Source of the DNA: Chamaelirium japonicum
Lineage: Eukaryota > Streptophyta > Magnoliopsida > Liliales > Melanthiaceae
Direction of reading: 5' to 3'
NCBI GenBank assembly: GCA_947650365.1
Contig: OX393550.1
Span: 121,894,374-121,958,373 of the forward strand
Length of the DNA stretch: 64,000 bases
The notes below the pieces were generated by a model, which saw only the letters and a program-made list of their open reading frames with translations, was not told the DNA's origin and searched no databases. Of the stretch, positions 1-64,000 are shown one piece after another; the first letter of the stretch is position 1, and every line of letters begins with the position of its first letter. The translations under genes were made by a program, and so were the position numbers.

Positions 1-3000
1 GAATAAATTAGAATGGATTGTATGAATGAATTAGAATAGATTGTGCGAATGAATTAGAATGGATCGTATGAATGAATTAGAATGGATACATTCGTGCGAA
101 TGAATTAGAATGGATCGTATGAATGACTTAGAATCGATCGTACGAATGAATTAGAATTGATCATGCGAATGAATTAGAATGGATCGTGCGAATGAATTAG
201 AATGGATCGTACGAATGAAATAGAATGGATTGTACGAATGAGATAGAAAGGATCGTACGAATGAATTAGAATGGATACATTCATGCGAATGAATTAGAAT
301 GGATCATACGAATGAATTAGAATGGATTCATTCGTGCGAATGAATTAGAATGGATCGTACAAATGTGTAAGAATGGATCGTACGAATGAATTAGAATGGA
401 TTGAATTAGAATGAATCGTACGAATGAATTAGAATGGATCGTACGAATGAATTAGAATGGATCGTACGAATGAATTAGAATGGATTGAATTAGAATGAAT
501 CGTACGAATGAATTAGAATGAATCATACCGTACGAATGAATTAGAATGGATCATACGAAGGAATTAGAATGGATCGTACGAATGAATTAGAATGGATCGT
601 ACGAATGAATTAGAATGGATCGTACGAAGGAATTAGAATGGATCGTACGAAGGAATTAGAATGGATAGTACGAATGAATTAGAATGGATACCTTCGTGCA
701 AATGAATTAGAATGGATCGTACGAATGAGTAAGAATGGATCATACGAATGAAATAGAATGGATCGTATGAATGTATTAGAATGGATCGTGCGAATGAATT
801 AGAATGGATCGTACGAATGAATTAGAATAGATTGTGCGAATGAATTAGAATGGATCCTACGAATGAATTAGAATGGATCGTATGAATGAATTAGATTGGA
901 TTGTGCGAATGAATTAGAATGGATCGTACGAAGGAATTAGAATGGATCGTACGAATGAATTAGAATGGATCGTTCGAATGAATTAGAATAGATTGTGCGA
1001 ATGAATTAGAATGGATCGTACGAATGAATTAGAAAGGATACATTCGTGCGAATGAATTAGAATGGATCGTATCAGTGTGAATGAATTAGAATGGATCGTG
1101 CGAATGAATTAGAATGGATCGTATTAATGAATTAGAATGGATCGTGCGAATGAATTAGAATGGATCGTACGAATGAGTAAGAATGGATCGTGCGAATGAA
1201 TTAGAATGGATCATATGAATGAATTAGAATGGATCGTATGAATGAATTAGAATGGATCGTGCGAATAAATTAGAATGGATCGTATGAATGAATTAGAATA
1301 GATTGTGCGAATGAATTAGAATGGATCGTACGAATGAATTAGAATGGATACATTCGTGCGAATGAATTAGAATGGATCGTATGAATGAATTAGAATCGAT
1401 CGTACGAATGAATTAGAATGGATCATGCAAATGAATTAGAATGGTTCGTGCGAATGAATTAGAATGGATCGTACGAATGAAATAGAATGGATTGTACGAA
1501 TGAGATAGAATGGATCGTACGAATGAATTAGAATGGATACATTCATGCGAATGAATTAGAATGGATCATACGAATGAATTAGAATGGATTCATTCATGCG
1601 AATGAATTAGAATGGATCGTACGAATGAATTAGAATGGATCGTAGGAATGAATTAGAATGGATCGCACGAATGAATTAGAATGGATCGTGCTAATGAATT
1701 AGAATGGATCGTGCGAATGAATTAGAATGGATCGTGCGAATGAATTAGAATGGATCGTACGAATGAATTAGAATGGATCGTTCGAATGAATTAGAATAGA
1801 TTGTGCGAATGAATTAGAATGGATCGTACGAATGAATTAGAAAGGATACATTCGTGCGAATGAATTAGAATGGATCGTATGAGTGTGAATGAATTAGAAT
1901 GGATCGTGCAAATGAATTAGAATGGATCGTATTAATGAATTAGAATGGATCGTGCGAATGAATTAGAATGGATCGTACGAATGAGTGAGAATGGATCGTG
2001 CGAATGAATTAGAATGGATCATATGAATGAATTAGAATGGATCGTATGAATGAATTAGAATGGATCTTGCGAATAAATTAGAATGGATCGTATGAATGAA
2101 TTAGAATAGATTGTGCGAATGAATTAGAATGGATCGTACGAATGAATTAGAATGGATACATTCGTGCGAATGAATTAGAATGGATCGTATGAATGAATTA
2201 GAATCGATCGTACGAATGAATTAGAATGGATCGTGCGAATGAATTAGAATGGATCGTACGAATGAAATAGAATGGATTGTACGAATGAGATAGAATGGAT
2301 CGTACGAATGAATTAGAATGGATACATTCATGCGAATGAATTAGAATGGATCATACGAATGAATTAGAATGGATTCATTCGTGCGAATGAATTAGAATGG
2401 ATCGTAAAAATGTGTAAGAATGGATCGTACGAATGAATTAGAATGGATTGAATTAGAATGAATCGTACGAATGAATTAGAATGGATCGTACGAATGAATT
2501 AGAATGGATCGTACGAATGAATTAGAATGGATTGAATTAGAATTAATCGTACGAATGAATTAGAATGAATCATACCATACGAATGAATTAGAATGGATCA
2601 TACGAAGGAATTAGAATGGATCGTACGAATGAATTAGAATGGATCGTACGAAGGAATTAGAATGGATCGTACGAAGGAATTAGAATGGATAGTACGAATG
2701 AATTAGAATGGATACCTTCGTGCAAATGAATTAGAATGGATCGTACGAATGAGTAAGAATGGATCATACGAATGAAATAGAATGGATCGTATGAATGTAT
2801 TAGAATGGATCGTGCGAATGAATTAGAATTGATCGTACGAATGAATTAGAATAGATTGTGCGAATGAATTAGAATGGATCGTACGAATGAATTAGAATGG
2901 ATCGTATGAATGAATTAGATTGGATCGTGCGAATGAATTAGAATGGATCGTACGAAGGAATTAGAATGGATCGTACGAATGAATTAGAATGGATCGTTCG

Positions 3001-4511
3001 AATGAATTAGAATAGATTGTGCGAATGAATTAGAATGGATCGTACGAATGAATTAGAAAGGATACATTCGTGCGAATGAATTAGAATGGATCGTATGAGT
3101 GTGAATAAATTAGAATGGATCGTGCAAATGAATTAGAATGGATCGTATTAATGAATTAGAATGGATCGTATGAGTGTGAATGAATTAGAATGGATCGTGC
3201 GAATGAATTAGAATGGATCGTATTAATGAATTAGAATGGATCGTGCGAATGAATTAGAATGGATCGTACGAATGAGTAAGAATGGACGAGCGAATGAATT
3301 AGAATGGATCATACGAATGAATTAGAATGGGTCATATGAATGAATTAGAATGGATCGTGCGAATAAATTAGAATGGATCGTATGAATGAATTAGAATAGA
3401 TTGTGCGAATGAATTAGAATGGATCGTACGAATGAATTAGAATGGATACATTCGTGTGAATGAATTAGAATGGATCGTATGAATGAATTAGAATTGATCG
3501 TACGAATGAATTAGAATGGATCATGCGAGTGAATTAGAATGGATCGTGCGAATGAATTAGAATGGATCGTACGAATGAAATAGAATGGATTGTACGAATG
3601 AGATAGAATGGATCGTACGAATGAATTAGAATGGATACATTCATGCGAATGAATTAGAATGGATCATATGAATGAATTAGAATGGATCGTATGAATGAAT
3701 TAGAATGGATCGTGCGAATAAATTAGAATTAGAATGGATCGTACGAATGAATTAGAATGGATCGTACGAATGAATTAGAATGGATCGTACGAATGAATTA
3801 GAATGGATTGAATTAGAATGAATCGTACGAATGAATTAGAATGAATCATACCGTACGAATGAATTAGAATGGATCATACGAAGGAATTAGAATGGATCGT
3901 ACGAATGAATTAGAATGGATCGTACGAATGAATTAGAATGGATCGTACGAAGGAATTAGAATGGATCGTACGAAGGAATTAGAATGGATAGTACGAATGA
4001 ATTAGAATGGATACCTTCGTGCAAATGAATTAGAATGGATCGTACGAATGAGTAAGAATGGATCGTATGAATGAAATAGAATGGATCGTATGAATGAATT
4101 AGAATGGATCGTGCGAATGAATTAGAATGGATCGTACGAATAAATTAGAATAGATTGTGCGAATGAATTAGAATGGATCGTACGAATGAATTAGAATGGA
4201 TCGTACGAATGAATTAGAATGGATCGTATGAATGAATTAGAATGGATCATGCGAATGAATTAGAATGGATCGTGCGAATGAATTAGAATGGATCGTACGA
4301 ATGAATTAGAATGGATACATTCGTGCGAAAGAATTAGAATAGATCGTATGAATGAATTAGAATGGATCCTGTGAATGAAATAGAATGGATCGTACGAATG
4401 AATTAGAATGGATCGTGCGAATGAATTAGAATGGATCGTACGAATGAATTAGAATGGATCGTACGAAGGAATTAGAATGGATCGTACGAATGAATTAGAA
4501 AGGATACATTC
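1..4511 (+). repeat. Forward satellite block 1
   Basis: Longest forward block but one. It holds a higher-order pattern: the run GAATCGATCG, CATGCG, GTGCG, GAAATAG, GAGATAG recurs near 131, 1391, 2201 and 3491, so spacing alternates between about 0.8 and 1.3 kb. The GAATCATACCG 28-mer lies near 524, 2570 and 3847, and the CCTTCGTGCAAATG unit near 690, 2714 and 4014. Ends at a J2 switch. Confidence 0.93.
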
Positions 4512-4709
4512 GAATTCATTCGTACGATCCATTCTAATTCCTTCGCACGATCCATATTCTAATTCATTCGCACGATCCATTCTAATTCATTCGCACGATC
4601 CATTCTAATTCATTCATACGATCCATTCTAATTCATTCACACAATCCATTCTAATTCATTCTAATTTATTCTAATTCATTCACACAATCCATTCTAATTC
4701 ATTCTAATA
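4511..4709 (-). repeat. Reverse satellite block 2
   Basis: Short reverse insert of about 200 bp. It matches the reverse block before the T6 spacers at 9404-9562 and 61087-61244 (shared GATCCATATTCTAATTC and CACACAATCC units). Here the 35-bp spacer is missing and two extra satellite units stand in its place before the return at CATTCTAATAGATCGTACG. Confidence 0.92.
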
Positions 4710-4950
4710 GATCGTACGAATGAATTAGAAAGGATACATTCGTGCGAAAGAATTAGAATGGATCGTATGAATGAATTAGATTGGATCGTATAAATGAATT
4801 AGAATAGATCGTACGAATGAATTAGAATGGATCGGGCTAATGAATTAGAATGGATCGTGCGAATGAATTAGAATGGATCGTTCGAATGAATTAGAATGGA
4901 TCGTACGAATGAATTAGAATAGATCGTACGAATGAATTAGAATGGATCGT
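4710..4950 (+). repeat. Forward satellite block 3
   Basis: About ten forward monomers opening with a GAAAGGATACATTCGTGCGAAAG unit, the same order as in block 7. The block ends at the exact centre of a J3 palindrome (4941-4960). Confidence 0.92.
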
Positions 4951-5091
4951 ACGATCCATTCTAATTCATTCATACGATCCATTCTAATTCATTCGCACTA
5001 TCTATTCTAATTCATTCGTACGATCCATTCTAATTCATTCGCACGATCCATTCTAATTCATTCATACGATCCATTCTATTTCATTCGTACA
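4951..5091 (-). repeat. Reverse satellite block 4
   Basis: Six reverse monomers that pair with the forward monomers on their left across the J3 centre. It returns to forward at a K1 switch, ATTCGTACAATAGATCATATG. Confidence 0.92.
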
Positions 5092-8000
5092 ATAGATCAT
5101 ATGAGTGTGAATGAATTAGAATGGATCATGCGAATGAATTAGAATGGATCGTATTAATGAATTAGAATGGATCGTGCGAATGAATTAGAATGGATCGTAC
5201 GAATGAGTAAGAATGGATCGTGCGAATGAATTAGAATGGATCATATGAATGAATTAGAATGGATCGTATGAATGAATTAGAATGGATCGTGCGAATAAAT
5301 TAGAATGGATCGTATGAATGAATTAGAATAGATTGTGTGAATGAATTAGAATGGATCGTACGAATGAATTAGAATGGATACATTCGTGCGAATGAATTAG
5401 AATGGATCGTATGAATGAATTAGAATCGATCGTACGAATGAATTAGAATGGATCATGCGAATGAATTAGAATGGATCGTGCGAATGAATTAGAATGGATC
5501 GTACGAATGAATTAGAATGGATCGTACGAATGAATTAGAATAGATTGTGCGAATGAATTAGAATGGATCGTACGAATGAATTAGAATGGATCGTACGAAT
5601 GAATTAGAATGGATCGTATGAATGAATTAGAATGGATCGCACGAATGAATTAGAATGGATCGTGCTAATGAATTAGAATGGATCGTGCGAACGAATTAGA
5701 ATGGATCGTGCGAATGAATTAGAATGGATCGTACTAATGAATTAGAATGGATCGTACGAATGAATTAGAATGGATCGTTCGAATGAATTAGAATAGATTG
5801 TGCGAATGAATTAGAATGGATCGTACGAATGAATTAGAAAGGATACATTCGTGCGAATGAATTAGAATGGATCGTATGAGTGTGAATGAATTAGAATGGA
5901 TCGTGCAAATGAATTAGAATGGATCGTATTAATGAATTAGAATGGATCGTGCGAATGAATTAGAATGGATCGTACGAATGAGTAAGAATGGATCGTGTGA
6001 ATGAATTAGAATGGATCGTATCAATGAATTAGAATGGATCGTACGAATAAATTAGAATGGATCGTATGAATGAATTAGAATAGATTGTGCGAATGAATTA
6101 GAATGGATCGTACGAATGAATTAGAATGGATACATTCGTGCGAATGAATTAGAATCGATCGTATGAATGAATTAGAATCGATCGTATGAATGAATTAGAA
6201 TGGATCATGCGAATGAATTAGAATGGATCGTGCGAATGAATTAGAATGGATCGTACGAATGAAATAGAATGGATTGTACGAATGAGATAGAATGGATCGT
6301 ACGAATGAATTAGAATGGATACCTTCATGCGAATGAATTAGAATGGATCATACGAATGAATTAGAATGGATTCATTCGTGCGAATGAATTAGAATGGATC
6401 GTACAAATGAGTAAGAATGGATCGTACGAATGAATTAGAATGGATTGAATTAGAATGAATCGTACGAATGAATTAGAATGGATCGTACGAATGAATTAGA
6501 ATGGATCGTACGAATGAATTAGAATGGATCGTATTAATGAATTAGAATGGATCGTGCGAATGAATTAGAATGGATCGTATTAATAAATTAGAATGGATCG
6601 TATGAGTGTGAATGAATTAGAATGGATCGTGCGAATGAATTAGAATGGATCGTATTAATGAATTAGAATGGATCGTGCGAATGAATTAGAATGGATCGTA
6701 CGAATGAGTAAGAATGGATCGAGCGAATGAATTAGAATGGATCATACGAATGAATTAGAATGGATCATATGAATGAATTAGAATGGATCGTGCGAATAAA
6801 TTAGAATGGATCGTATGAATGAATTAGAATAGATTGTGCGAATGAATTAGAATGGATCGTACGAATGAATTAGAATGGATACATTCGTGTGAATGAATTA
6901 GAATGGATCGTATGAATGAATTAGAATCGATCGTACGAATGAATTAGAATGGATCATGCGAATGAATTAGAATGGATCGTGCGAATGAATTAGAATGGAT
7001 CGTACGAATGAAATAGAATGGATTGTACGAATGAGATAGAATGGATCGTACGAATGAATTAGAATGGATACATTCATGCGAATGAATTAGAATGGATCAT
7101 ATGAATGAATTAGAATGGATCGTATGAATGAATTAGAATTGATCGTGCGAATAAATTAGAATGGATAGTATGAATGAATTAGAATAGATTGTGCGAATGA
7201 ATTAGAATGGATCGTACGAATGAAATAGAATGGATTGTACGAATGAATTAGAATGGATACATTCATGCGAATGAATTAGGATGGATCGTATGAATGAATT
7301 AGAATGGATCGTATGAATGAATTAGAATGGATTAAATTAGAATGAATCGTACGAATGAATTAGAATAAATCATACCGTACGAATAAATTAGAATGGATCA
7401 TACGAAGGAATTAGAATGGTTCGTACGAATGAATTAGAATGGATCGTACGAATGAATTAGAATGGATCGTACGAAGGAATTAGAATGGATCGTACGAAGG
7501 AATTAGAATGGATAGTACGAATGAATTAGAATGGATACCTTCGTGCAAATGAATTAGAATTGATCGTACGAATGAGTAAGAATGGATCATACGAATGAAA
7601 TAGAATGGATCGTATGAATGTATTAGAATGGATCGTGCGAATGAATTAGAATGGATCGTACGAATGAATTAGAATAGATTGTGCGAATGAATTAGAATGG
7701 ATCGTACGAATGAATTAGAATGGATCGTATGAATGAATTAGAATGGATCGTGCGAATGAATTAGAATGGATCGTACGAATGAATTAGAATGGATCGTACG
7801 AATGAATTAGAATGGATCGTTCGAATGAATTAGAATAGATTGTGCGAATGAATTAGAATGGATCGTACGAACGAATTAGAAAGGATACATTCGTGCGAAT
7901 GAATTATAATGGATCGTATGAGTGTGAATGAATTAGAATGGATCGTGCGAATGAATTAGAATGGATCGTGCGAATGAATTAGAATGGATCGTATTAATGA

Positions 8001-9403
8001 ATTAGAATGGATCGTATGAGTGTGAATGAATTAGAATGGATCGTGCGAATGAATTAGAATGGATCGTATTAATGAATTAGAATGGATCGTGCGAATGAAT
8101 TAGAATGGATCGTACGAATAAGTAAGAATGGATCGTGCGAATGAATTAGAATGGATCATACGAATGAATTAGAATGGATCGTATGAATGAATTAGAATGG
8201 ATCGTGCGAATAAATTAGAATGGATCGTATGAATGAATTAGAATAGATTGTGCGAATGAATTAGAATAGATCGTACGAATGAATTAGAATGGATACATTC
8301 GTGTGAATGAATTAGAATGGATCGTATGAATGAATTAGAATCGATCGTACGAATAAATTAGAATGGATCATGCGAATGAACTAGAATGGATCGTGCGAAT
8401 GAATTAGAATGGATCGTACGAATGAAATAGAATGGATTGTACGAATGAGATAGAATGGATCGTACGAATAAATTAGAATGGATACATTCATACGAATGAA
8501 TTAGAATGGATCATATGAATGAATTAGAATGGATCGTATGAATGAATTAGAATGGATCGTGCGAATAAATTAGAATGGATCGTATGAATGAATTAGAATA
8601 GATTGTGCGAATGAATTAGAATGGATCGTACGAATGAAATAGAATGGATTGTATGAATGAATTAGAATGGATACATTCGTGCGAATGACTTAGGATGGAT
8701 CGTATGAATGAATTAGAATGGATCGTACGAATGAATTAGAATGGATTGAATTAGAATGAATCGTACGAATGAATTAGAATGAATTATACCGTACGAATGA
8801 ATTAGAATGGATCATACGAAGGAATTAGAATGGATCGTACGAATGAATTAGAATGGATCGTACGAATGAATTAGAATGGATCGTACGAAGGAATTAGAAT
8901 GGATAGTACGAATGAATTAGAATGGATACCTTCGTGCAAATGAATTAGAATGGATCGTACGAATGAGTAAGAATGGATCGTACGAATGAAATAGAATGGA
9001 TCGTATGAATGAATTAGAATGGATCGTGTGAATGAATTAGAATGGATCGTACGAATAAATTAGAATAGATTGTGCTAATGAATTAGAATGGATCGTACGA
9101 ATGAATTAGAATGGATCGTACGAATGAATTAGAATGGATCGTATGAATGAATTAGAATGGATCGTGTGAATGAATTAGAATGGATCGTGCGAATGAATTA
9201 GAATGGATACATTCGTGCGAAAGAATTAGAATAGATCGTATGAATGAATTAGAATGGATCGTATGAATCAAATAGAATGGATCGTACGAATGAATTAGAA
9301 TGGATCGTGCGAATGAATTAGAATGGATCGTACGAATGAATTAGAATGGATCGTACGAAGGAATTAGAATCGATCGTACGAATGAATTAGAAAGGATACA
9401 TTC
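5092..9403 (+). repeat. Forward satellite block 5
   Basis: Uninterrupted 4.3-kb forward block with variant 29-mers GTATGAGTGTGAATG near 5098, 5874, 6601, 7917 and 8005. The last part (from about 7.4 kb) repeats the variant order of 2.5-4.5 kb at an offset of 4.8-4.9 kb. It ends with GAAAGGATACATTCGAATTC, a J2 switch. Confidence 0.93.
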
Positions 9404-9562
9404 GAATTCATTCGTACGATCCATTCTAATTCCTTCGCATGATCCATATTCTAATTCATTCGCACGATCCATTCTAATTCATTCGCACGATCCATTCTAA
9501 TTCATTCATACGATCCATTGTAATTCATTCACACAATCCATTCTAATTCATTCTAATTTATT
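9404..9562 (-). repeat. Reverse satellite block 6
   Basis: Reverse arm leading to the first T6 spacer. It contains an odd unit with two extra bases, GATCCATATTCTAATTC (near 9442), that also marks the sister copies at 4543 and 61127 and, inverted, at 48644-48652. Confidence 0.93.
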
Positions 9563-9597
9563 CGTATGTGAGTGGATCGTGTTTTTTCGTGCTAATG
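9563..9597 (+). other. T6-bearing 35-bp spacer, copy 1
   Basis: Not a satellite monomer: it begins CGTATGTGAGTGGATCGTG, followed by TTTTTT and CGTGCTAATG. The run of six T is the longest homopolymer I noticed in the window. It sits exactly at a reverse-to-forward switch (class K2). Identical in all 35 bases to the copy at 61245-61279 and to the reverse complement of 48520-48554. Possible origins are a captured filler at a break or a remnant of unrelated sequence; no function is visible. Confidence 0.9.
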
Positions 9598-9848
9598 AAT
9601 TAGAATGGATCGTACGAATGAATTAGAAAGGATACATTCGTGCGAAAGAATTAGAATGGATCGTATGAATGAATTAGATTGGATCGTATAAATGAATTAG
9701 AATAGATCGTACGAATGAATTAGAATGGATCGTGCTAATGAATTAGAATGGATCGTGTGAATGAATTAGAATGGATCGTGCGAATGAATTAGAATGGATC
9801 GTACGAATGAATTAGAATGGATCGTACGAATGAATTAGAATGGATCGT
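9598..9848 (+). repeat. Forward satellite block 7
   Basis: Forward monomers after the T6 spacer, with the same GAAAGGATACATTCGTGCGAAAG opening as block 3, ending at the second J3 palindrome (centre between 9848 and 9849). Confidence 0.92.
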
Positions 9849-9990
9849 ACGATCCATTCTAATTCATTCGTACGATCCATTCTAATTCATTCGCACAATC
9901 TATTCTAATTCATTCGTACGATCCATTCTAATTCATTCGCACGATCCATTCTAATTCATTCATACAATCCATTCTATTTCATTCGTACAA
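9849..9990 (-). repeat. Reverse satellite block 8
   Basis: Six reverse monomers, counterpart of block 4 at an offset of about 4,898 bases, ending with the same K1 switch TACAATAGATCGTATGAGTG. Confidence 0.92.
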
Positions 9991-11026
9991 TAGATCGTAT
10001 GAGTGTGAATGAATTAGAATGGATCATGCGAATGAATTAGAATGGATCGTATTAATGAATTAGAATGGATCGTGCGAATGAATTAGAATGGATCGTACGA
10101 ATGAGTAAGAATGGATCGTGCGAATGAATTAGAATGGATCATATGAATGAATTAGAATGGATCGTATGAATGAATTAGAATGGATCGTGCGAATAAGTTA
10201 GAATGGATCGTATGAATGAATTAGAATAGATTGTGCGAATGAATTAGAATGGATCGTACGAATGAATTAGAATGGATACATTCGTGCGAATGAATTAGAA
10301 TGGATCGTATGAATGAATTAGAATCGATCGTACGAATGAATTAGAATGGATCATGCGAATGAATTAGAATGGATCGTGCGAATGAATTAGAACGGATCGT
10401 ACGAATGAAATAGAATTGATTGTACGAATGAGATAGAATGGATCGTACGAATGAATTAGAATGGATACATTCATGCGAATGAATTAGAATGGATCATACG
10501 AATGAATTAGAATGGATTCATTCGTGCAAATGAAGTAAAATGGATCGTACGAATGAGTAAGAATGGATCGTACGAATGAATTAGAATGGATTGAATTAGA
10601 ATGAATCGTACGAATGAATTAGAATGGATCGTAGGAATAAATTAGAATGGATCGTACGAATGAATTAGAATGGATCGTACGAAGGAATTAGAATGGATCG
10701 TACGAAGGAATTAGAATGGATAGTACGAATGAATTAGAATGGATACCTTCGTGCAAATGAATTAGAATGGATCGTACGAATGAGTAAGAATGGATCGTAC
10801 GAATGAAATAGAATGGATCGTATGAATGAATTAGAATGGATCGTGCGAATGAATTAGAATGGATCGTACGAATGAATTAGAACAGATTGTGCGAATGAAT
10901 TAGAATGGATCGTACGAATGAATTAGAATGGATCGTACGAATGAATTAGAATGGATCGTATGAATGAATTAGAATGGATCGTGCGAATGAATTAGAATAG
11001 ATCGTACGAATGAAATAGAATGGATT
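9991..11026 (+). repeat. Forward satellite block 9
   Basis: Opens with GTATGAGTGTGAATG and follows block 5 in variant order to about 10410, then diverges. Ends in a J1a switch (loop TCGCACGAATGT). Confidence 0.92.
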
Positions 11027-11112
11027 CGCACGAATGTATCCATTCTAATTCATTCGTACGATCCATTCTAATTCATTCGTACAATCCATTCTAATTCATT
11101 CGTACAATCCAT
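11027..11112 (-). repeat. Reverse satellite block 10
   Basis: The shortest block, under four monomers. It returns to forward inside a monomer at CAATCCATTAGAATATGG, a join I find only here. Confidence 0.9.
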
Positions 11113-12209
11113 TAGAATATGGATCGTACGAAGGAATTAGAATGGATCGTACGAATGAATTAGAATGGGTCGTTTGAGTGAATGCGAATGGATCGTGCGA
11201 AAGAATTAGAATGGATTGTACGAATGAATTAGAATGGATCGTTCGAATGAATTAGAATAGATTGTGCGAATGAATTAGAATGGATCGTACGAATGAATTA
11301 GAAAGGATACATTCGTGCGAATGAATTAGAATGGATCGTATGAGTGTGAATGAATTAGAATGGATCGTGCGAATGAATTAGAATGGATCGTATTAATGAA
11401 TTAGAATGGATCGTGCGAATGAAATAGAATGGATCGTACGAATGAGTAAGAATGGATCGTGCGAATGAATTAGAATGGATCATATGAATGAATTAGAATG
11501 GATCGTATGAATGAATTAGAATGGATCGTGCGAATAAATTAGAATGGATCGTATGAATGAATTAGAATAGATTGTGCGAATGAATTAGAATGGATCGTAC
11601 GAATGAATTAGAATAGATACATTCGTGCGAATGAATTAGAATGGATCGTATGAATGAATTAGAATCGACCGTACGAATGAATTAGAATGGATCATGCGAA
11701 TGAATTAGAATGGATCGTGCGAATGAATTAGAATGGATCGTACGAATGAAATAGAATGGATTGTACGAATGAGATAGAATGGATCGTACGAATGAATTAG
11801 AATGGATACATTCGTGCGAATGAATTAGAATGGATCATACGAATGAATTAGAATGGATCATATGAATGAATTAGAATGGATCGTGCGAATGAATTAGAAT
11901 GGATCGTACGAATGAATTAGAATGGATCGTACGAATGAATTAGAGTGGATACATTCGTACAAATGAATTAGAATGGATCGTACGAATGAATTAGAATGGA
12001 TCATATGAATGATTAGAATGGATCGTGCGAATGAATTAGAATGGATCATACGAAGGAATTAGAATGGATCGTACGAATAAATTAGAATGGATCGTACGAA
12101 TGAATTAGAATGGATCGTACGAATGAATTAGAATGGATCGTATGAATGAATTAGAATGGATCGTGCGAATGAATTAGAATGGATCGTACGAATGAAATAG
12201 AATGGATTC
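11113..12209 (+). repeat. Forward satellite block 11
   Basis: Contains the diverged unit GATCGTTTGAGTGAATGCG near 11170, the 29-mer near 11338 and the GAATCGA/GAGATAG series at 11661-11775. Ends at a J1a variant whose loop reads TCACACGAATGT. Confidence 0.92.
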
Positions 12210-52190: not shown

Positions 52191-52263
52191 ATCGTATGAA
52201 TGAATTAGAATGGATCGTGCGAATGAATTAGAATGGATCGTACGAATGAAATAGAATGGATTC
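51693..52263 (+). repeat. Forward satellite block 51
   Basis: Carries the rare GAATCAAACCG form of the 28-mer at 51815, shared only with 53749. Ends at J1a. Confidence 0.92.
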
Positions 52264-52540
52264 GCACGAATGTATCCATTCTAATGCATTCGTACGATCC
52301 ATTCTAATTCATTCGTACAATCCATTCTAATTCATTCGCACGATCCATTCGAATTCACTCAAACGATCCATTCTAATTCATTCATATGATCAATTCTAAT
52401 TCATTTGCACGAATGTATCCATTCTAATTCATTTGTACGATCCATTCTAATTCATTTGTACGAATGTATCCACTCTAATTCATTCATACGATCCATTCTA
52501 ATTCATTTGTACGAATGTATCCACTCTAATTCATTCGTAC
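52264..52540 (-). repeat. Reverse satellite block 52
   Basis: Eleven units with CATTCGAATTCACTCAAACG near 52338, a variant of the inverted GTTTGAGTGAATG unit, and a repeated TTTGTACGAATGTATCCACTC unit. Ends at K5. Confidence 0.91.
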
Positions 52541-53105
52541 GAATGAATTAGAATGGATCGTATGAGTGTGAATGAATTAGAATGGATCGTGCGAATGAAT
52601 TAGAATGGATCGTATTATTGAATTAGAATGGATCGTATGAATGAAATAGAATAGATCGTACGAATGAATTAGAATGGATCGTATGAATGAATTAGAATGG
52701 ATCGTACAAAGGAATTAGAATGGATCGTACGAAGGAATTAGAATAGATCGTACGAATGAATTAGAATGGATCGTACGAAGGAATTAGAATGGATCGTACG
52801 AAGGAATTAGAATGGATAGTACGAATGAATTAGAATGGATACCTTCGTGCAAATGAATTAGAACGGATCGTATGAATGAGTAAGAATGGATCGTACGAAT
52901 GAAATAGAATGGATCGTATGAATGAATTAGAATGGATCGTGCGAATGAATTAGAATGGATTGTATGAATGAAATAGAATGGATCGTATGAATGAATTAGA
53001 ATGGATCGTGCGAATGAATTAGAATGGATCATACGAATGAATTAGAATGGATCGTACGATGGAATTAGAATGGATCGTACGAATGAATTAGAAAGGATAC
53101 ATTCG
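52541..53105 (+). repeat. Forward satellite block 53
   Basis: Opens with GTATGAGTGTGAATG, includes several GAAGGAATTAG units and ends at J2. Confidence 0.92.
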
Positions 53106-53624
53106 AATTCATTCGTACGATCCATTCTAATTCATTCACACTCATACGATCCATTCTAATTCATTCGCACGAATGTATCCTTTCTAATTCATTCGTACAA
53201 TCCATTCTAATTCATTCGCACAATCTATTCTAATTCATTCGAACGATCCATTCTAAGTCATTCGTACGATCCATTCTAATTCATTCGTACGATCCATTCT
53301 AATTCATTCGCACGATCCATTCTAATTCATTAATACGATCCAATCTAATTCATTCATACGATCCATTCTAATTCATTCGTTCGATCCATTCTAATTCATT
53401 CGCACGATCCATTCTAATTCATTCGCACGATCCATTCTAATTCATTTGTACGAATGTAGCCACTCTAATTCATTCATACGATCCATTCTAATTCATTCGC
53501 ACGAATGTATCCATTCCAATTCATTCGTACGATCCATTCTATTTTATTCGTACGATCCATTCTAATTCATTCGTACGATTCATTCTAATTCAATCCATTC
53601 TAATTCATTCGTACGATCCATTCT
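53106..53624 (-). repeat. Reverse satellite block 54
   Basis: Matches 51186-51692 at an offset of 1,934 bases with scattered single differences only; ends at K4. Confidence 0.93.
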
Positions 53625-54124
53625 AATGAATTAGAATGAATCGTACGAATGAATTAGAATGGATCGTACGAATGAATTAGAATGGATCGTACGAATGAAT
53701 TAGAATGGATTGAATTAGAATGAATCGTACGAATGAATTACAATGAATCAAACCGTACGAATGAATTAGAATGGATCATACGAAGGAATTAGAATGGATC
53801 GTACGAATGAATTAGAATGGATCGTACGAATGAATTAGAATGGATCGTACGAAGGAATTAGAATGGATCGTACGAAGGAATTAGAATGGATAGTACGAAT
53901 GAATTAGAATGGATACCTTCGTGCAAATGAATTAGAATGGATCGTACGAATGAGTAAGAATGGATCGTACGAATGAAATAGAATGGATCGTATGAATGAA
54001 TTAGAATGGATCGTGCGAATGAATTAGAATGGATCGTACGAATGAATTAGAATAGATTGTGCGAATGAATTAGAATGGATCGTACGAATGAATTAGAATG
54101 GATCGTACGAATGAATTAGAATGG
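53120..54124. repeat. Segmental duplication B, right copy
   Basis: Partner of 51186-52190 with only scattered single-base differences by eye, so one of the youngest copy events in the window. Confidence 0.9.
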
Positions 54125-54128
54125 ATTG
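53625..54128 (+). repeat. Forward satellite block 55
   Basis: Continues the duplication of block 51 until about 54124, where GATTGATTCG marks an abrupt join to reverse that I find nowhere else. Confidence 0.92.
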
Positions 54129-55534
54129 ATTCGTACGATCCATTCTAATTCATTCGTACGATCCATTCTAATTCATTCGTACGATCCATTCTAATTCATT
54201 CATTCGATTCATTCTAATTCAATCCATTCTAATTCATTCGTACGATCCATCTTACTCATTCGTACAATCCATTCTAATTCATTCGCACGAATGAATCCAT
54301 TCTAATTCATTCGTCTGATCCATTCTAATTCATTAGCATGAATGTATCCATTCTAATTCATTCGTACGATCCATTCTATCTCATTCGTACAATCTATTCT
54401 ATTTCATTCGCACAATCTATTCTAATTCATTCATACGATCCATTCTAATTTATTCGCACGATCCATTCTAATTCATTCATACGATCCATTCTAATTCATT
54501 CGTACGATCCATTCTAATTCATTCATACGATCCATTCTAATTCATTCGTACGATCCATTCTAATTCATTCGTACGAGCCATTCTAATTCATTCGCACGAT
54601 CCATTCTAATTCATTCGCACAATCTATTCTAATTCATTCGTACGATCCATTCTAATTCATTCGCACGATCCATTCTAATTCATTCGTACGATCCATTCTA
54701 ATTCATTCGCACAAACCATTCTAATTCATTCATACGATCCATTCTATTTCATTCGTACGATCCATTCTAACTCATTCGTACGATCCATTCTAATTCATTT
54801 GCACGAAGGTATCCATTCTAATTCATTTGTACTATCCATTCTAATTCCTTCGTACGATCCATTCTAATTCCTTCGTACGATCCATTCTAATTCATTCGTA
54901 CGATCCATTCTAATTCATTCGTACGATCCATTCTAATTCCTTCGTATGATCCATTCTAATTCATTCATACGGTATGATTCATTCTAATTCATTCGTACGA
55001 TTCATTCTAATTCAATCCATTCTAATTCATTCGTACGATCCATTCTAATTCATTCGTACGATCCATTCTAATTCATTCGTACGATTCATTCTAATTCAAT
55101 CCATTCTAATTCATTCGTACGATCCATTCTTACTCATTCGTACGATCCATTCCAATTCATTCGCACGAATGAATCCATTCTAATTCATTCGTATGATCCA
55201 TTCTAATTCATTCGCATGAATGTATCCATTCTAATTCATTCGTACGATCCATTCTATCTCATTCGTACAATCCATTCTATTTCATTCGTACGATCCATTC
55301 TAATTCATTCGCACGATCCATTCTAATTCATTCGCATGATCCATTCTAATTCATTCGTACGATCCATTCTAATTCATTCGTACGATCCATTCTAATTCAT
55401 TCGCACAATCTATTCTAATTCATTTGTACGATCCATTCTAATTCATTCGCACGATCCATTCTAATTCATTCATACGATCCATTCTATTTCATTCGTACGA
55501 TCCATTCTTACTCATTCGTACGATCCATTCTAAT
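54129..55534 (-). repeat. Reverse satellite block 56
   Basis: Reverse higher-order unit again, with TCTCATTCG near 54376 and 55253, and CGGTATGATTC near 54969. Rejoins forward at CTAATACGAATG. Confidence 0.92.
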
Positions 55535-56728
55535 ACGAATGAATTAGAATGGATCGTACGAATGAATTAGAATGGATTGAATTAGAATGAATCGTACGAA
55601 TGAATTGGAATAGATCGTACGAATGAATTAGAATGGATACGAATGGATCGTACGAATGAGTAAGAATGGATCGTACGAATGAAATAGAATGGATTGTACG
55701 AATGAATTAGAATGGATACATTCGTGCGAATGAATTAGGATGGATCGTATGAATGAATTAGAATAGATTGTGCGAATGAATTAGAATGGATCGTACGAAT
55801 GAATTAGAGTGGATACATTCATGCGAATGAATTAGAATGGATCGTATGAATGAATTAGAATGGATCGTATGGGTGAATTAGAATGGATACGAAGGAATTA
55901 GAATGGATCGTACGAAGGAATTAGAATGGAGAATGGATCGTGCGAATGAATTAGAATGGATCGTGCGATAAGAATGGATCGTACGAATGAAATAGAATAG
56001 ATCGTACGGATAAATGAATTTGGATCGTGCTAATGAATTAGAATGGATCGTACGAATGAATTAGAATGGATCTTACTAATGAATTAGAATAGATTGTGCG
56101 AATGAATTAGAATAGATCGTACGAATGAATTAGAAAGGATATATTCGTGCGAATGAATTAGAATAGATCGTATGAATGAATTAGATTGGATCGTATTAAT
56201 GAATTAAAATGGATCATGCGAATGAATTAGAATGGATCGTACGAATGAATTGGAATGGATACATTCGTGCGAATGAATTAGAATGGATCGTACAAATGAA
56301 TTAGAATGGATCGTACGAATGAATTAGAATGGATCGTATGAATAAATTAGAATGGATCGTGCGAATGAATTAGAATGGATCGTACGAATGAATTAGAATT
56401 GATCGTATGAATGAATTAGAATAGATTCTGCGAATGAATTAGAATGGATCGTACGAATGAATTGGAATGGATACATTCGTGCGAATAAATTAGAATGGAT
56501 CGTATGAATGAATTAGAGTGGATACATTCGTACAAATGAATTAGAATGGATCGTACGAATGAATTAGAATGGATACATTCGTGTGAATGAATTAGAATGG
56601 ATCATATGAATGAATTAGAATGGATCGTTTGAGTGAATGCGAATGGATCGTGCGAATGAATTAGAATGGATTGTACGAATGAATTATAATGGATCGTACG
56701 AATGAATTAGAATGGATACATTCGTGCG
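55535..56728 (+). repeat. Forward satellite block 57
   Basis: Has a 61-bp irregular module at 55966-56026, GGAATGGATACATTC units and GTTTGAGTGAATGCG near 56626, ending at J1b. Confidence 0.92.
55966..56026 (+). repeat. 61-bp irregular satellite module
   Basis: Forward copy with the same upstream run as 28344 (GTATGGGTG, GGATACGAAGG, GGAGAATGG) and the same downstream GATATATTCG unit. Confidence 0.88.
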
Positions 56729-57208
56729 AATCCATTCTATTTCATTCGTACGATCCATTCTAATTCATTCGCACGATCCATTCTAATTCATTCATACGAT
56801 CCATTCTAATTCATTCGTACGATCAATTCTAATTCATTCGTACGATCCATTCTAATTCATTCGCACGAATGTATCCATTCCAATTCATTCGTACGATCCA
56901 TTCTAATTCATTCGCACAATCTATCATTACTAATTCATTCGTACGATCCATTCTATTTCATTCGTACGATCCATTCTTACTCATTCGTACGATCCATTCG
57001 TATCCATTCTAATTCATTCGTACGATCTATTCTAATTCATTCGTACGATCTATTCTAATTCATTAATGCGATCCAATCTAATTCATTCATACGATCCATT
57101 CTAATTCATTTGTACGATCCATTCTAATTCAATCGCACGATCCATTCTAATTCATTCGCACGATCCATTCTAATTCATTCATACGATCCATTCTAATTCA
57201 TTCGTACG
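56729..57208 (-). repeat. Reverse satellite block 58
   Basis: Includes an irregular CAATCTATCATTACTAATTC unit near 56926. Returns to forward at CGTACGATCGTGCG, directly before an irregular module. Confidence 0.91.
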
Positions 57209-57237
57209 ATCGTGCGAATGAATTAGAATGGATCGTG

Positions 57238-57298
57238 CGATAAGAATGGATCGTACGAATGAAATAGAATAGATCGTACGGATAAATGAATTTGGATC
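57238..57298 (+). repeat. 61-bp irregular satellite module
   Basis: Forward copy lying within 30 bases of a reverse-to-forward switch, so only its right-hand flank is shared with 55966. Confidence 0.88.
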
Positions 57299-58629
57299 GT
57301 GCTAAAGAATTAGAATGGATCGTACGAATGAATTAGAATGGATCGTACTAATGAATTAGAATAGATTGTGCGAATGAATTAGAATGGATCGTACGAATGA
57401 ATTAGAAAGGATATATTCGTACGAATGAATTAGAATAGATCGTATGAATGAATTAGATTGGATCATATTAATAAATTAGAATGGATCGTGCGAATGAATT
57501 AGAATGGATCGTAAGAATGAATTAGAATGGATAGATTCGTGCGAATGAATTTGAATGGATTGTACGAAGGAATTAGAATGGATCGTACGAAGGAATTAGA
57601 ATAGATCATACGAAGAAATTAGAATGGATCGTACGAATGAATTAGAAAGGATCGTATGAATGAATTTGAATGGATCGTGCGAATAAATTAAAATGGATCG
57701 TATGAATGAAATAGAATGGATCGTATGAATTAGAATGGATCGTACGAATGAAATAGAATGGATCTTACGAATGAATTAGAATAGATTGTGCGAATGGATT
57801 AGAATGGATCATACGATTGAGTAAGAATGGATTGTACGAATGAAATAGAATAGATCGTACGAATGAATTAGAATGGATCATGCTAATGAATTAGAATAGA
57901 TCGTACGAATGAATTAGAATAGATCGTGCGAATGAATTAGAATGGATCGTACGAATGAATTGGAATGGATACATTCGTGCGAATGAATTAGAATGGATCG
58001 TATGATTGAATTAGAGTGGATACATTCGTACAAATGAATTAGAATGGATCGTACGAATGAATTAGAATGGATACATTCGTGCGAATGAATTAGAATGGAT
58101 CATATGAATGAATTAGAATGGATCGTACTAATGAGTAAGAATGGATCATACGAATGAATTAGAATGGATTGAATTAGAATGGATCGTATGAATGAATTAG
58201 AATTGATCGTACGAATGAATTAGAATGGATCGTATGAATGAATTAGATTGGATCGTATTAATGAATTAGAATAGATCGTACGAATGAATTAGAATAGATC
58301 GTACGAATGAATTAGAATGGATACGAATGGATCGTACGAATGAGTAAGAATGGATCGTACGAATGAAATAGAATGGATTGTACGATTGAATTAGAATGGA
58401 TACATTCGTGCGAATGAATTAGGATGGATCGTATGAATAAATTAGAATAGATTGTGCGAATGAATTAGAATGGATCGTACGAATGAATTAGAATGGATAC
58501 ATTCATGCGAATGAATTAGAATGGATCGTATGAATGAATTAGAATAGATCGTATGAGTGAATTAGAATGAATCGTACGAAGGAATTAGAATGGAGAATGG
58601 ATCGTGCGAATGAATTAGAATGGATCGTG

Positions 58630-58690
58630 CGATAAGAATGCATCGTACGAATGAAAAAGAATAGATCGTACGAATAAATGAATTTGGATC
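58630..58690 (+). repeat. 61-bp irregular satellite module
   Basis: Most diverged copy: GAAAAAG for GAAATAG, CGAATAAATG for CGGATAAATG, and GTGATAATG after it. Confidence 0.87.
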
Positions 58691-59611
58691 GTGATAATGA
58701 ATTAGAATGGATCGTATTAATGAATTAGAATGGATCGTGCGAATGAATTAGAATGGATCGTACGAACGAGTACGAATGGATCGTGCGACTGAATTAGAAT
58801 GGATCATATGAATGAATTAGAATGGATCGTATGAATGAATTAGAATGGATCGTGCGAATAAATTAGAATGGATCGTGCGAATGAATTAGAATGGATTGTA
58901 CGAATGAGATAGAATGGATCGTACGAATGAATTAGAATGGATACATTCATGCGAATGAATTATAATGGATCATACGAATGAATTTGAATGGATTCATTCG
59001 TGCGAATGAATTAGAATGGATCGTACGAATGAGTATGAATGGATCGTACGAATGAATTAGAATGGATCGAACGAATGAATTAGAATGGATACATTCGTGC
59101 ACAAGAATTAGAATGGATTGTATGAATGAATTAGAATGGATCGTGCGAATGAAATAGAATGGATCGTATGAATTAGAATGGATCGTACGAATGAAATAGA
59201 ATGGATCGTACGAATGAATTAGAATAGATTGTGCGAATGGATTAGAATGGATCATACGATTGAGTAAGAATGGATTGTACGAATGAAATAGAATAGATCG
59301 TACGAATGAATTAGAATGGATCATGCTAATGAATTAGAATTGATCGTACGAATGAATTAGAATAGATTGTGCGAATGAATTAGAATAGATCGTACGAATG
59401 AATTGGAATGGATACATTCGTGCGAATGAATTAGAATGGATCGTATGAATGAATTAGAGTGGATACATTCGTACAAATGAATTAGAATGGATCGTATGAA
59501 TGAATTAGAATGGATACATTCGTGCGAATGAATTAGAATGGATCATATGAATGAATTAGAATGGATCGTTTGAGTGAATGCGAATGGATCGTGCGAATGA
59601 ATTAGAATGGA

Positions 59612-59847
59612 TCGTGCGAATGAATTAGAATGGGTCGTACGAATGAATTAGAATGGATACACGATCCAGATCCATTCTAATTCATTCGCACAATCTATTC
59701 TAATTCATTCGTAGGATCCATTCTAATTCATTACTACGATCCATTCTAATTCATTCATACGATCCATTCTAATTCATTCGTACGATCCATTCTAATTCAT
59801 TCGCACGATCCATTCTAATTCATTCATACGATCCATTCTAATTCATT
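59612..59847. repeat. Segmental duplication E, right copy
   Basis: Partner of 26370-26605 with GGATACACGATCCAGATCC in place of GGATACACAATCCAGATCC. Confidence 0.9.
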
Positions 59848-60629
59848 CGTACGATCTATTCTATTTCATTCGTACAATCCATTCTTACTCAATCGTATGA
59901 TCCATTCTAATCCATTCGCACAATCTATTCTAATTCATTCGTACGATCCATTCTTATTCATTCGTACGATCTATTCTATTTCATTCGTACAATCCATTCT
60001 AATTCATTCATACGATCCAATCTAATTCATTCATACGATCCATTCTAATTCATTCGTACGATATATTCTATTTCATTCATACGATCCATTCTAATTCGTT
60101 TGTACGATCCTTTCTAATTCCTTCGTACGATCCATTCTAGTTCATTCGTATGACCCATTCTAATTCATAAGTACGTTCCATTCTAATTCATTCAAATGAT
60201 CCATTCTAATTCATTCGTACAATCCTTTCTAATTCATTCATACGATCCATTCTAATTCATTCGTATGATCCATTCTAATTCATTCGTACGATCCATTCTA
60301 ATTCATTCATACGATCCAATCTAATTCATTCATACGATCCATTCTAATTCATTCGCACGAATGTATCCATTCTAATTCATTCGCACGATCCATTCTAATT
60401 CATTCATACAATCCATTCTAATTCTTTTGCACGAATGTATCCATTCTAATTTATTCGTACGATCCATTCTAATTCATTCGTATGATCTATTCTAATTCAT
60501 TCGCATGATCCATTATAATTCATTCATACGATCCAATCTAATTCATTCGTACGATCCATTCTAATTCATTCGCACGAATGTATCAACTCTAATTCATTCG
60601 TACGATCCATTCTAATTCATTCATACATG
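59666..60629 (-). repeat. Reverse satellite block 60
   Basis: The first 180 bp duplicate 26420-26605; then CTTACTCAATCG at 59884-59924 and the GTTTGTACGATCCTTT series at 60094. Rejoins forward at CATACATGTACGAATG. Confidence 0.92.
59969..60203 (-). repeat. Segmental duplication F, copy 3 of 3
   Basis: Same series with TTCATAAGTACG, shared with copy 2, so copies 2 and 3 may be the closer pair. Confidence 0.87.
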
Positions 60630-61086
60630 TACGAATGAATTAGAATGGATACATTCGTGCGAATGAATTAGAATGGATCGTTTGAATGAATTAGATTGGA
60701 TCGTATGCATGAATTAGAATGGATCGTGCGAATGAATTAGAATGGATCGTACGAATGAATTAGAATGGATCGAACGAATGAATTAGAATGGATACATTCG
60801 TGCAAAAGAATTAGAATGGATTGTATGAATGAATTAGAATGGATCGTGCGAATGAATTAGAATGGATCGTACGAATGAATTAGAATGGATACATTCGTGC
60901 GAAAGAATTAGAATAGATCGTATGAATGAATTAGAATGGATCGTATGAATGAAATAGAATGGATCGTACGAATGAATTAGAATGGATCGTGCGAATGAAT
61001 TAGAATGGACCGTACGAATGAATTAGAATGGATCGTACGAAGGAATTAAAATGGATCGTACGAATGAATTAGAAAGGATACATTCG
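60630..61086 (+). repeat. Forward satellite block 61
   Basis: From 60896 it follows 9214 onward at a constant offset of 51,682 bases, ending at J2. Confidence 0.93.
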
Positions 61087-61244
61087 AATTCATTCGTACG
61101 ATCCATTCTAATTTCTTCGTACGATCCATATTCTAATTCATTCGCACGATCCACTCTAATTCATTCCCACGATCCATTCTAATTCATTCATACGATCCAT
61201 TCTAATTCATTCACACAATCCATTCTAATTCATTCTAATTTATT
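61087..61244 (-). repeat. Reverse satellite block 62
   Basis: Reverse arm before the third T6 spacer, with the ATATTCTAATTC unit near 61128. Confidence 0.93.
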
Positions 61245-61279
61245 CGTATGTGAGTGGATCGTGTTTTTTCGTGCTAATG
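61245..61279 (+). other. T6-bearing 35-bp spacer, copy 3
   Basis: Same 35 bases as 9563-9597, in the same orientation and with the same neighbours on both sides, at a reverse-to-forward switch. Confidence 0.9.
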
Positions 61280-62172
61280 AATTAGAATGGATCGTACGAA
61301 TGAATTAGAATGGATCATATGAATGAATTAGAATGGATCGTATGAATGAATTAGAATGGATCGTGCGAATAAATTAGAATGAATCATGCGAATGAATTAG
61401 AATGGATCGTGCGAATGAATGAGAATGGATCGTACGAATGAAATAGAATGGATTATACGAATGAGATAGAATGGATCATACGAATGAATTAGAATGGATA
61501 CATTCATGCGAATGAATTAGAATGGATCATACGAATGAATTAGAATGGATTCATTCGTGCGAATGAATTAGAATGGATCGTACGAATGAGTAAGAATGGA
61601 TCGTACGAATGAATTAGAATGGATTGAATTAGAATGAATCGTACGAATTAATTAGAATGGATCGTACGAATGACTTAGAATGGATCATACGAATGAATTA
61701 GAATGGATTGAATTAGAATGAATCGTACGAATTAATTAGAATGAATCATACCGTACGAATGAATTAGAATGGATCATACGAAGGAATTAGAATGGATCGT
61801 ACGAATGAATTAGAATGGATCGTACGAAGGAATTAGAATGGATCGTACGAAGGAATTAGAATGGATAGTACGAATGAATTAGAATGGATACCTTCGTGCA
61901 AATGAATTAGAATGGATCGTACTAATGAGTAAGAATGGATCGTACGAATGAAATAGAATGGATCGTATGAATGAATTAGAATGGATCGTGCGAATGAATT
62001 AGAATGTATCGTACGAATGAATTAGAATAGATTGTGCGAATGAATTAGAATGGATCGTACGAATCAATTAGAATGGATCGTACGAATGAATTAGAATGGA
62101 TCATATGAATGAATTAGAATGGATCGTGCGAATGAATTAGAATGGATCGTACGAATAAAATAGAATGGATTC
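61280..62172 (+). repeat. Forward satellite block 63
   Basis: Leaves the block 7 order soon after the spacer (about 61310) and then follows block 39: GAGATAG near 61460, GAATCATACCG near 61747, CCTTCGTGCAAATG near 61890. Ends at J1a. Confidence 0.92.
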
Positions 62173-63090
62173 GCACGAATGTATCCATTCTAATTCATTC
62201 GCACGATCCATTCTAATTCATTCGTACAATCCATTCTAATTCATTCGCACGATCCATTCGCATTCACTCAAACGATCCATTCTAATTCATTCATATGATC
62301 TATTCTAATTCATTCGCACGAATGTATCCATTCTAATTCATTCGTACGATCCATTATAATTCATTTGTACGAATGTATCCACTCTAATTCATTCATACGA
62401 TCCATTCTAATTCATTCGCACGAATGTATCCATTCCAATTCATTCGTACGATCCATTCTAATTCATTCGCACAATCTATTCTAATTCATTCATACGATCA
62501 ATTCTAATTCATTAGCATGATCCATTCTAATTCATTCGTACGATCTATTCTATTTCATTCGTACAATCCATTCTTACTCAATCGTATGATCCATTCTAAT
62601 CCATTCGCACAATCTATTCTAATTCATTCATACGATCCATTCTATTTCATTCGTACGATCCATTATAATTCATACGATCCATTCTATTTCATTCATACGA
62701 TCCATTTTAATTCATTCGCACGATCCATTCTAATTCATTCATACGATCCATTATAATTCATTCGTACGATCCATTCTAATTTCTTCGTACGATCCATTCT
62801 AATTTCTTCGTATGATCTATTCTAATTCCTTCGTACGATCCATTCTAATTCCTTCGTACGATCCATTCAAATTCATTCGCACGAATCTATCCATTCTAAT
62901 TTATTCGTACGATCCATTCTAATTCATTCGCACGATCCATGCTAATTCATTAATACGATCCAATCTAATTCATTCATACGATCTATTCTAATTCATTCGC
63001 ACGAATATATCCTTTCTAATTCATTCGTACGATCCATTCTAATTCATTCGCACAATCTATTCTAATTCATTAGTACGATCCATTCTAATT
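62173..63090 (-). repeat. Reverse satellite block 64
   Basis: The order is close to block 14: inverted GTTTGAGTGAATGCG near 62250, CTTACTCAATCG at 62573-62613, CGCACGAATCTATCC near 62879, TTAATACGATCCAATC near 62950. Rejoins forward at CTAATTAGAATAG. Confidence 0.92.
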
Positions 63091-64000
63091 AGAATAGATT
63101 GTATGAATTAGAATGGATCGTATGAATGAATTAGAATAGATCGTACGAATGAATTAGAATGGATCGTATGAATGAATTAGATTGTGCGAATGAATTAGAA
63201 TGGATACATTCGTGCGAATGAATTAGATTGGATCGTATGCATGAATTAGAATGGATCGTGCGAATGAATTAGAATAGATTGTGCGAATGAATTAGAATGG
63301 ATCGTACGAATGAATTAGAATGGATCGTACAAATGAATTAGAATGGATACATTCGTGCGAAAGAATTAGAATAGATCGTATGAATGAATTAGAATGGATC
63401 GTATGAATGAAATAGAATGGATCGTACGAATGAATTAGAATGGATCGTGCGAATGAATTAGAATGGATCGTACGAATGAATTAGAATGGATCGTACGAAG
63501 GAATTAGAATGGATCGTACGAATGAATTAGAATTAGAATGAATCGTACGAATGAATTAGAATGGATCGTACGAATTAATTAGAATGGATCGTACGAATGA
63601 ATTAGAATGGATTGAATTAGAATCAATCGTACGAATGAATTAGAATGAATCATACCGTACGATCGTGCGAATGAATTAGAATGGATCGTACGAATGAATT
63701 AGAATAGATTGTGCGAATGAATTAGAATGGATCGTACGAATGCATTAGAATGGATCGTACGAATGAATTAGAATGGATTGTCTGAATGAATTACAATAGA
63801 TCGTATGAATGAATTAGAATGGATCTTACGAATGAATTAGAATGGAACGTACGAATGAATTAGAATGGATCGTACGAATGAATTAGAATGGATACATTCG
63901 TGCAAATGAATTAGAATGGATACATTCATGGGAATGAATTAGACTGGATCGTACAAAGGAATTAGAATGGATCATACGAATGAAATATAATGGGTCGTAC
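63091..64000 (+). repeat. Forward satellite block 65
   Basis: Last block, running off the window. A join near 63660 (CATACCGTACGATCGTGCG) drops part of a unit, and GAATTAGAATTAGAATG near 63530 is a short unit. Confidence 0.92.

Follow-up and report, generated by a model that had tools for sequence, protein, structure and literature searches.

The 64,000-base stretch of DNA analysed here, which we call the window, consists throughout of a single 23-bp satellite that changes direction 64 times, and the convergent changes, at which forward satellite runs into reverse satellite, are mostly copies of a few founder joins, made in both directions. We consider that the best explanation is probably one in which rare illegitimate joins were followed by bidirectional copying of those joins in modules of a Chio1/Chio2 unit. 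A few such joins would first have put forward and reverse satellite together; modules of 0.2 kb (our own cut-off) to 1.4 kb would then have been copied in both directions, multiplying the joins, through homology-driven processes that may have been break-induced replication, gene conversion or exchange between inverted copies. The convergent joints would be the copied part, and many of the divergent joints, at which the change is the opposite one, would be private joins at the border between a copied module and the resident array. Exchange between inverted copies would turn switches round and leave their number unchanged, and new joints would need an illegitimate join. A copied segment with one convergent joint must meet the array in a new divergent joint, so that convergent joints should be clonal and divergent joints mostly private; the mirror case, copying around divergent joints, would give the opposite pattern. 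The flips, the few convergent families, their two orientations and the homology through their joints are read directly from the window, and from them we infer the repair pathway and the insertion scenario. All results concern this one window, and the rest of the array may differ.

Two-state segmentation with 10-mers of the unit divides the window into 65 blocks separated by 64 switches, with 35,781 bp in + and 28,219 bp in - orientation, and gives the same result at all switch penalties tried (10, 20, 30 and 50). These are exactly the figures of the original prediction, which had claimed repeated flips and a near balance of the two directions; the 28-bp variant, the paralogy inside the window and the copying of convergent joints, described below, are no part of that prediction. 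Two phase-aware hidden Markov models (HMMs), which also locate the turning points, again return 65 blocks, with 35,845/28,155 bp for a 46-state model and 35,843/28,157 bp for a 56-state model with an optional 5-bp insert. A flip about every kilobase, as had been proposed, describes only the average of the 63 interior blocks (mean 930 bp, median 667 bp, range 88-4,695); their lengths show no significant departure from an exponential distribution (Kolmogorov-Smirnov P = 0.30). Even the eight listed stretches that fit worst resemble variants of the satellite, with no foreign insert seen among them. When longer repeat periods were sought in six long blocks, the best lag differed from block to block and no common higher-order period emerged.

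1..64000, no strand: Chio1/Chio2-type satellite array, 23-bp unit GAATGAATTAGAATGGATCGTAC, minor 28-bp unit GAATGAATTAGAATGGATACATTCGTGC; 65 alternating blocks

Switches were typed by the pair of phases given by the HMM with the optional insert (28-phase model). The 32 convergent switches fall into only 7 phase types, with 16, 7, 3, 2, 2, 1 and 1 members, and the two largest, A and B, account for 23 of them. Both orientations are present in the three largest types, in ratios of 9:7 for A, 4:3 for B and 1:2 for C. In the rows below and in those for the divergent switches, + and - denote the two orientations of one joint sequence only. The convergent switches are as follows.

11025..11026, +: type A (16 copies), by phase and through-joint homology
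12207..12208, +: type A
14188..14189, +: type A, variant core
16286..16287, -: type A inverted
17682..17683, -: type A inverted
21812..21813, +: type A
22933..22934, +: type A
32376..32377, -: type A inverted
39629..39630, -: type A inverted
41674..41675, +: type A
42051..42052, -: type A inverted
45379..45380, -: type A inverted, sequence through the joint common with copy 62170
51012..51013, +: type A
52261..52262, +: type A
56729..56730, -: type A inverted
62170..62171, +: type A
4512..4513, +: type B (7 copies), by phase and through-joint homology
9404..9405, +: type B
37404..37405, -: type B inverted
46576..46577, -: type B inverted
48689..48690, -: type B inverted
53105..53106, +: type B by phase
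61086..61087, +: type B
19238..19239, +: type C (3 copies), by phase and through-joint homology
19815..19816, -: type C inverted
37986..37987, -: type C inverted
4950..4951, unsigned: type D (2 copies), by phase, centred on GTAC dyad
9848..9849, unsigned: type D, by phase
26418..26419, +: type E (2 copies), by phase
59660..59661, +: type E, by phase
31009..31010, unsigned: type F (single), by phase
54128..54129, unsigned: type G (single), by phase

At switch 54128 the left arm was copied, at 98.5% identity, from the arm leading to the type-A joint 52261; it turns 69 bp (three units) earlier than that joint, into a different reverse arm.

Type A shows homology through its joint: at least 60 bp are common to the left and to the right of it in 116 of the 120 pairs of copies, compared with 15 of 300 random same-phase pairs; the median extents on the two sides are 202 and 89 bp for type A, compared with 37 and 19 bp for the random pairs. 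The copies at 62170 and 45379, which lie in opposite orientation, have 605 + 629 bp (1,234 bp) in common through the joint. The same threshold of at least 60 bp on both sides is reached by all three pairs of type C and by 15 of the 21 pairs of type B. A 60-mer on the switch has its best other match at a median edit distance of 1 for convergent and 4.5 for divergent switches (P = 7e-6), and of 0.5 for 64 non-switch controls. In flank tests, where the pool of non-members is far larger than that of members, the nearest relative of the type A left flank at 150 bp is another A copy in 13 of 16 cases, and the nearest relative of the type B flanks at 100 bp is another B copy in all 7 cases on the left and, with 2 ties, in 3 of 7 on the right. 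Founders counted by through-joint homology, with an anchor allowed to slide 15 bp, are fewer for convergent than for divergent switches at all five thresholds, and none of 400 comparisons between a junction and an array site reached 30 bp on both sides. Single-linkage clustering of joint sequences was rejected: it chained unrelated divergent switches, and phase types and through-joint homology were used instead.

The 32 divergent switches fall into 19 phase types, the largest with 4 members, and 13 are single in their type, compared with 2 of the 32 convergent switches (Fisher P = 0.002). Flank identity is near background on the whole in three of the six repeated divergent types (0/24, 1/9 and 9/11), and for this reason the count of 19 may be too low. 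These flank identities count gaps (background 0.79-0.85) and are not comparable with the arm identities given below, which omit them (background 0.90). The divergent switches are as follows.

9568..9569, +: recurrent (3 copies), unusual GTGTTTTTTCGTGC variant
48548..48549, -: GTGTTTTTTCGTGC type inverted, as 9568
61250..61251, +: GTGTTTTTTCGTGC type, as 9568
16953..16954, unsigned: recurrent (3 copies), with 40342 and 46431
40342..40343, unsigned: as 16953
46431..46432, unsigned: as 16953
5090..5091, unsigned: duplicated together with 9988 (direct, 1.4 kb)
9988..9989, unsigned: copied with 5090
51690..51691, unsigned: duplicated together with 53624 (1,027 bp, 98.5%)
53624..53625, unsigned: copied with 51690
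31860..31861, unsigned: centred on GTAC dyad; same phase pair at 37710, 48825 and 52536
4704, 11113, 13067, 15871, 18585, 19552, 21165, 22176, 25104, 27396, 37071, unsigned: first part of the other 21, scattered over 4704..63087
37710, 38385, 41867, 44475, 48825, 52536, 55533, 57207, 60627, 63086, unsigned: rest of the other 21

At the joints 9568, 48548 and 61250 the 60-mer over the joint is identical in all three copies, one of which is inverted.

Copying in both directions is also apparent when the window is compared with itself. At an identity of at least 92% over at least 200 bp there are 370 matches, 182 direct and 188 inverted, the longest being 1,432 bp direct and 1,081 bp inverted; three of the inverted matches are palindromic, each with itself. 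A paralogue of this kind exists inside the window for 79% of its length, and half is covered in both directions. The ends of the matches fall on the switches far more often than circular shifts of the switch positions would give: of 1,480 ends, 39.4% are no more than 20 bp from a switch, and 1,000 shifts yield a mean of 4.1% (standard deviation 1.7, highest 29.9%). At least one match end is found at 60 of the 64 switches and at 34% of 2,000 random sites. Two direct duplications illustrate the modules. The first (51166-52192 and 53100-54126; 1,027 bp, 98.5%) includes a divergent switch, and both ends of its right-hand copy lie within a few bases of the convergent switches 53105 and 54128. The second, of 1.4 kb (4710-6131 and 9608-11025; 93.6%), has a spacing of 4.9 kb and carries a convergent and a divergent switch with their order kept.

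To what satellite does the array belong? Tandem Repeats Finder returns GAATGAATTAGAATGGATCGTAC, 23 bp, as the unit. The HMM passes through 2,648 monomers, 2,334 of 23 bp and 314 (about 12%) of the 28-bp variant; among 2,661 monomer starts, 2,114 clean 23-bp and 301 clean 28-bp monomers are counted, figures that leave out other lengths and monomers crossing a switch. The 28-bp consensus GAATGAATTAGAATGGATACATTCGTGC differs from the 23-bp consensus by five extra bases, ACATT, and one A/G substitution. Exactly three perfect palindromes of at least 4 bp are present in the 23-bp consensus, TCGTACGA (8 bp), GATC and AATT, and a scan of the 28-bp consensus for perfect palindromes returns AATT only, other dyads being possibly imperfect or spaced. 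The 9-bp motif TTCGTACGA occurs 404 times and its reverse complement 496 times, so that it is found on both strands. In passages of Kuo et al. 2023 (PMC10264360), Chio1 (23 bp) and Chio2 (28 bp) are described as the satellite that the CENH3 units carry in the holocentromeres of Chionographis japonica, differing by a 5-bp deletion and one substitution; Chio1 has three dyad symmetries, a conserved 8-bp one among them, and Chio2 four, and the variants are intermingled in mixed forward and reverse arrays. A 2025 paper (PMC12722358) states that TTCGTACGA is common to Chio and the Chama repeat of the sister genus. Five of six tested published features match the window: the 23-bp main monomer, the 28-bp variant, the three dyads, TTCGTACGA, and the intermingled variants in mixed directions; the sixth is the set of four dyads in the 28-bp monomer, where the scan gave AATT and the others may be imperfect or spaced. 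On its sequence, the window looks like part of a Chio1/Chio2 centromere unit of Chionographis japonica or a very close relative, and by analogy with PMC10264360, rather than from the window itself, the array would be CENH3-bound. In the 28-bp monomer, ACATT completes CATTCG before TGCGAATG, and CATTCG and CGAATG form perfect inverted arms around two bases; the 5-bp insert may have arisen through a hairpin template switch at the 8-bp dyad. The window has no match in Rfam at gathering scores, its first 3,000 of 64,000 bases match no plasmid sequence, one exact 34-base pattern each gave no match in viral_contigs and genome_contigs, and none of five 15-16-base motifs of the window was found as text in the papers searched.

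Several observations weigh against the descent of the convergent joints from a few copied founders. The number of founders depends on the threshold, ranging over the five thresholds from 2 to 10 for convergent and from 14 to 26 for divergent switches. At 40 to 60 bp types D, E and G merge with A and form one group of 21 switches, and B takes in C at 40 bp; copy 53105 of type B is unlinked to the other B copies by through-joint homology. Phase types are therefore not equal to founders, given the merging of D, E and G with A and the isolation of 53105. In the 6 type B pairs that fall short, homology on the right ends within 40 bp, and the right flank of type A is nearer some non-A stretch in 13 of 15 copies, at both 100 and 150 bp. 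Lasting common descent is secure only near the joint itself. A match of at least 92% with at least 60 bp on each side spans 20 of the 64 switches; long matches therefore tend to stop at switches, and long modules with the joint intact are a minority. Copies and match ends are moreover not independent, so that the P values are too small and indicative only. Finally, the proposed identity with Chio is drawn from described features rather than from letters.

Could the inversions be an artefact, made by chimeric molecules, fold-back or mis-joined reads? This is a scarcely credible reading. Tandem arrays are hard to assemble, and the arms at switches are on average slightly above background, with an identity of 0.907 (standard deviation 0.020) for arms of 120-300 bp at 62 of 64 switches; 300 random opposite-strand pairs, each of 300 bp, give 0.900 (standard deviation 0.018). 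The arms are nevertheless far from near-identical, with a maximum of 0.953 and only 2 of 64 switches above the 99th background percentile. Near-identical arms would be expected of recent fold-back, which we reject, since the arms barely exceed random opposite-strand pairs; old fold-backs or true inversions are possible. The same joints also recur with diverged flanks, and the published assembly, if the window comes from it, was built from HiFi libraries with means of 14-26 kb, much longer than the blocks. Real inversions that arose at random, each flip a separate illegitimate event with one private convergent and one private divergent joint, are very improbable as the sole source. The exponential-like block lengths and the 13 of 32 single divergent switches are what such events would leave, but 23 of the 32 convergent switches lie in two phase types, and 116 of 120 pairs of type A and 15 of 21 of type B show homology that crosses the joint. 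That every flip is independent is rejected because most convergent switches share types and through-joint homology. Symmetric neutral copy-and-paste, in which random segments are copied and convergent and divergent joints differ by luck, is unlikely. It yields copies of a joint in both orientations. In toy simulations, a rough guide that takes one snapshot per run of abstract cells and ignores real sequence, selection and larger context, it produced clones of at least 16 in 196 of 600 runs with one insertion end direction-matched and in 29 of 600 without, and a gap in the fraction of singletons as large as observed in 2 of 946; a difference of at least 12 types, by contrast, arose in 2 of 1,200 and 0 of 946 runs. 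Large clones thus arise mainly with a direction-matched insertion end, which fits homology-driven entry and illegitimate exit.

Two further readings assign a role to the sequence or to its function. In the one, the 8-bp dyad TCGTACGA of the monomer forms hairpins at which replication switches strand, a view that we hold to be doubtful. The dyad is present in the consensus, and by mirror axis it is the centre of 8 of the 64 switches; 2 of these are convergent and 6 divergent, the latter compared with 1.4 of 32 expected if the 23 axes were equally likely. However, 8 of 64 is a minority, and the dyad is rejected as the usual turning point on that count; the main joints A and B lie elsewhere, a non-dyad axis (10) also has six divergent switches, and some of the six on the dyad axis are mutually related. 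In the other reading, which is improbable, flips are retained by selection because hairpins or double-stranded RNA (dsRNA) aid centromere identity or silencing. RNA transcribed across a switch could fold into a long hairpin, and passages of PMC12321929 and PMC12722358 discuss dyads and non-B DNA as centromere features. A 301-nt strand across the type-A switch 12207, the one switch folded, gives -209.1 kcal/mol (z -31.6; shuffles -68.5), and one non-switch stretch of equal length gives -62.4 kcal/mol (z -3.2; shuffles -50.9). Of the claim that forward-reverse pairs can fold as hairpins or cruciforms, the capacity for hairpins is thus supported, in silico and at one switch. The companion claim, that dsRNA through the switches feeds small RNAs for silencing, finds no evidence. 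In passages of PMC10264360, CHH methylation at Chio repeats is lower, at a gene-like level, and CENH3 chromatin is negatively correlated with the transcriptome (r = -0.50). Both speak against selection for silencing, and siRNA-directed silencing is not favoured, since low CHH methylation and low transcription are not expected under siRNA-directed methylation; 'small RNA' and 'siRNA' have 0 occurrences in the main text of that paper. Against selection also stand the Chamaelirium arrays, which, according to the passages on them, are consistently oriented and consist of a satellite sharing the 9-bp motif, so that flipping is dispensable for a working centromere there.

What would follow if rare joins were copied in modules, as we propose? 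Within an array that is otherwise uniform, joints would serve to mark descent. If most flips trace to a few founders, joints could track the spread of arrays within and between centromere units, of which a passage in PMC10264360 reports 100 on the assembled chromosomes, the mechanism of spreading being called unknown by its authors. We also put forward, as a tentative extension that may well prove wrong, that convergent joints are a propagating element: hairpin tips would be broken or would stall forks, recombination by homology would follow, and copying would run either way, each copy leaving a private divergent joint. If this is true, scrambling of orientation would be self-feeding, and could be what sets the scrambled arrays of Chio apart from the uniform ones of Chama in the sister genus.

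The direction flips as such are already published for a named centromere satellite, and the headline of the original prediction is not new, since they are described in PMC10264360 and PMC12722358; a passage of the latter sets the 'frequently alternating orientation' of Chio arrays against the Chama arrays, which are homogeneous and keep one direction. What is new here is how few founder joints the convergent switches go back to, with copies in both directions. No analysis of joints was found in the main texts of these two papers, where 'junction' and 'switch' occur 0 times; 'breakpoint' occurs once in that of PMC10264360, for inversions as a means of array spread, and 0 times in that of PMC12722358. 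Three systems offer a comparison. Human satellites 2 and 3 (Altemose et al. 2014, PMC4022460) resemble the window as short-repeat arrays from which some reads match both strands, and passages of that paper report that 1,738 reads were put aside because they might be breakpoints of inversions; they differ in being CATTC-based and of another lineage, and those passages describe no family of recurrent joints. Chio of Chionographis japonica shares with the window the 23- and 28-bp monomers, which differ by 5 bp and 1 bp, the three dyads, one of them of 8 bp, the intermingled variants and the mixed directions, although four dyads are stated for Chio2 whereas the scan of the window's 28-bp unit for perfect palindromes gives AATT alone. 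The Chama satellite of Chamaelirium luteum (PMC12722358) has TTCGTACGA in common with the 23-bp Chio monomer, a motif present here on both strands. According to passages of that paper, however, Chama is built of a 60-bp monomer that keeps one orientation over hundreds of kb, whereas the window is built of 23- and 28-bp monomers and changes direction at 64 switches.

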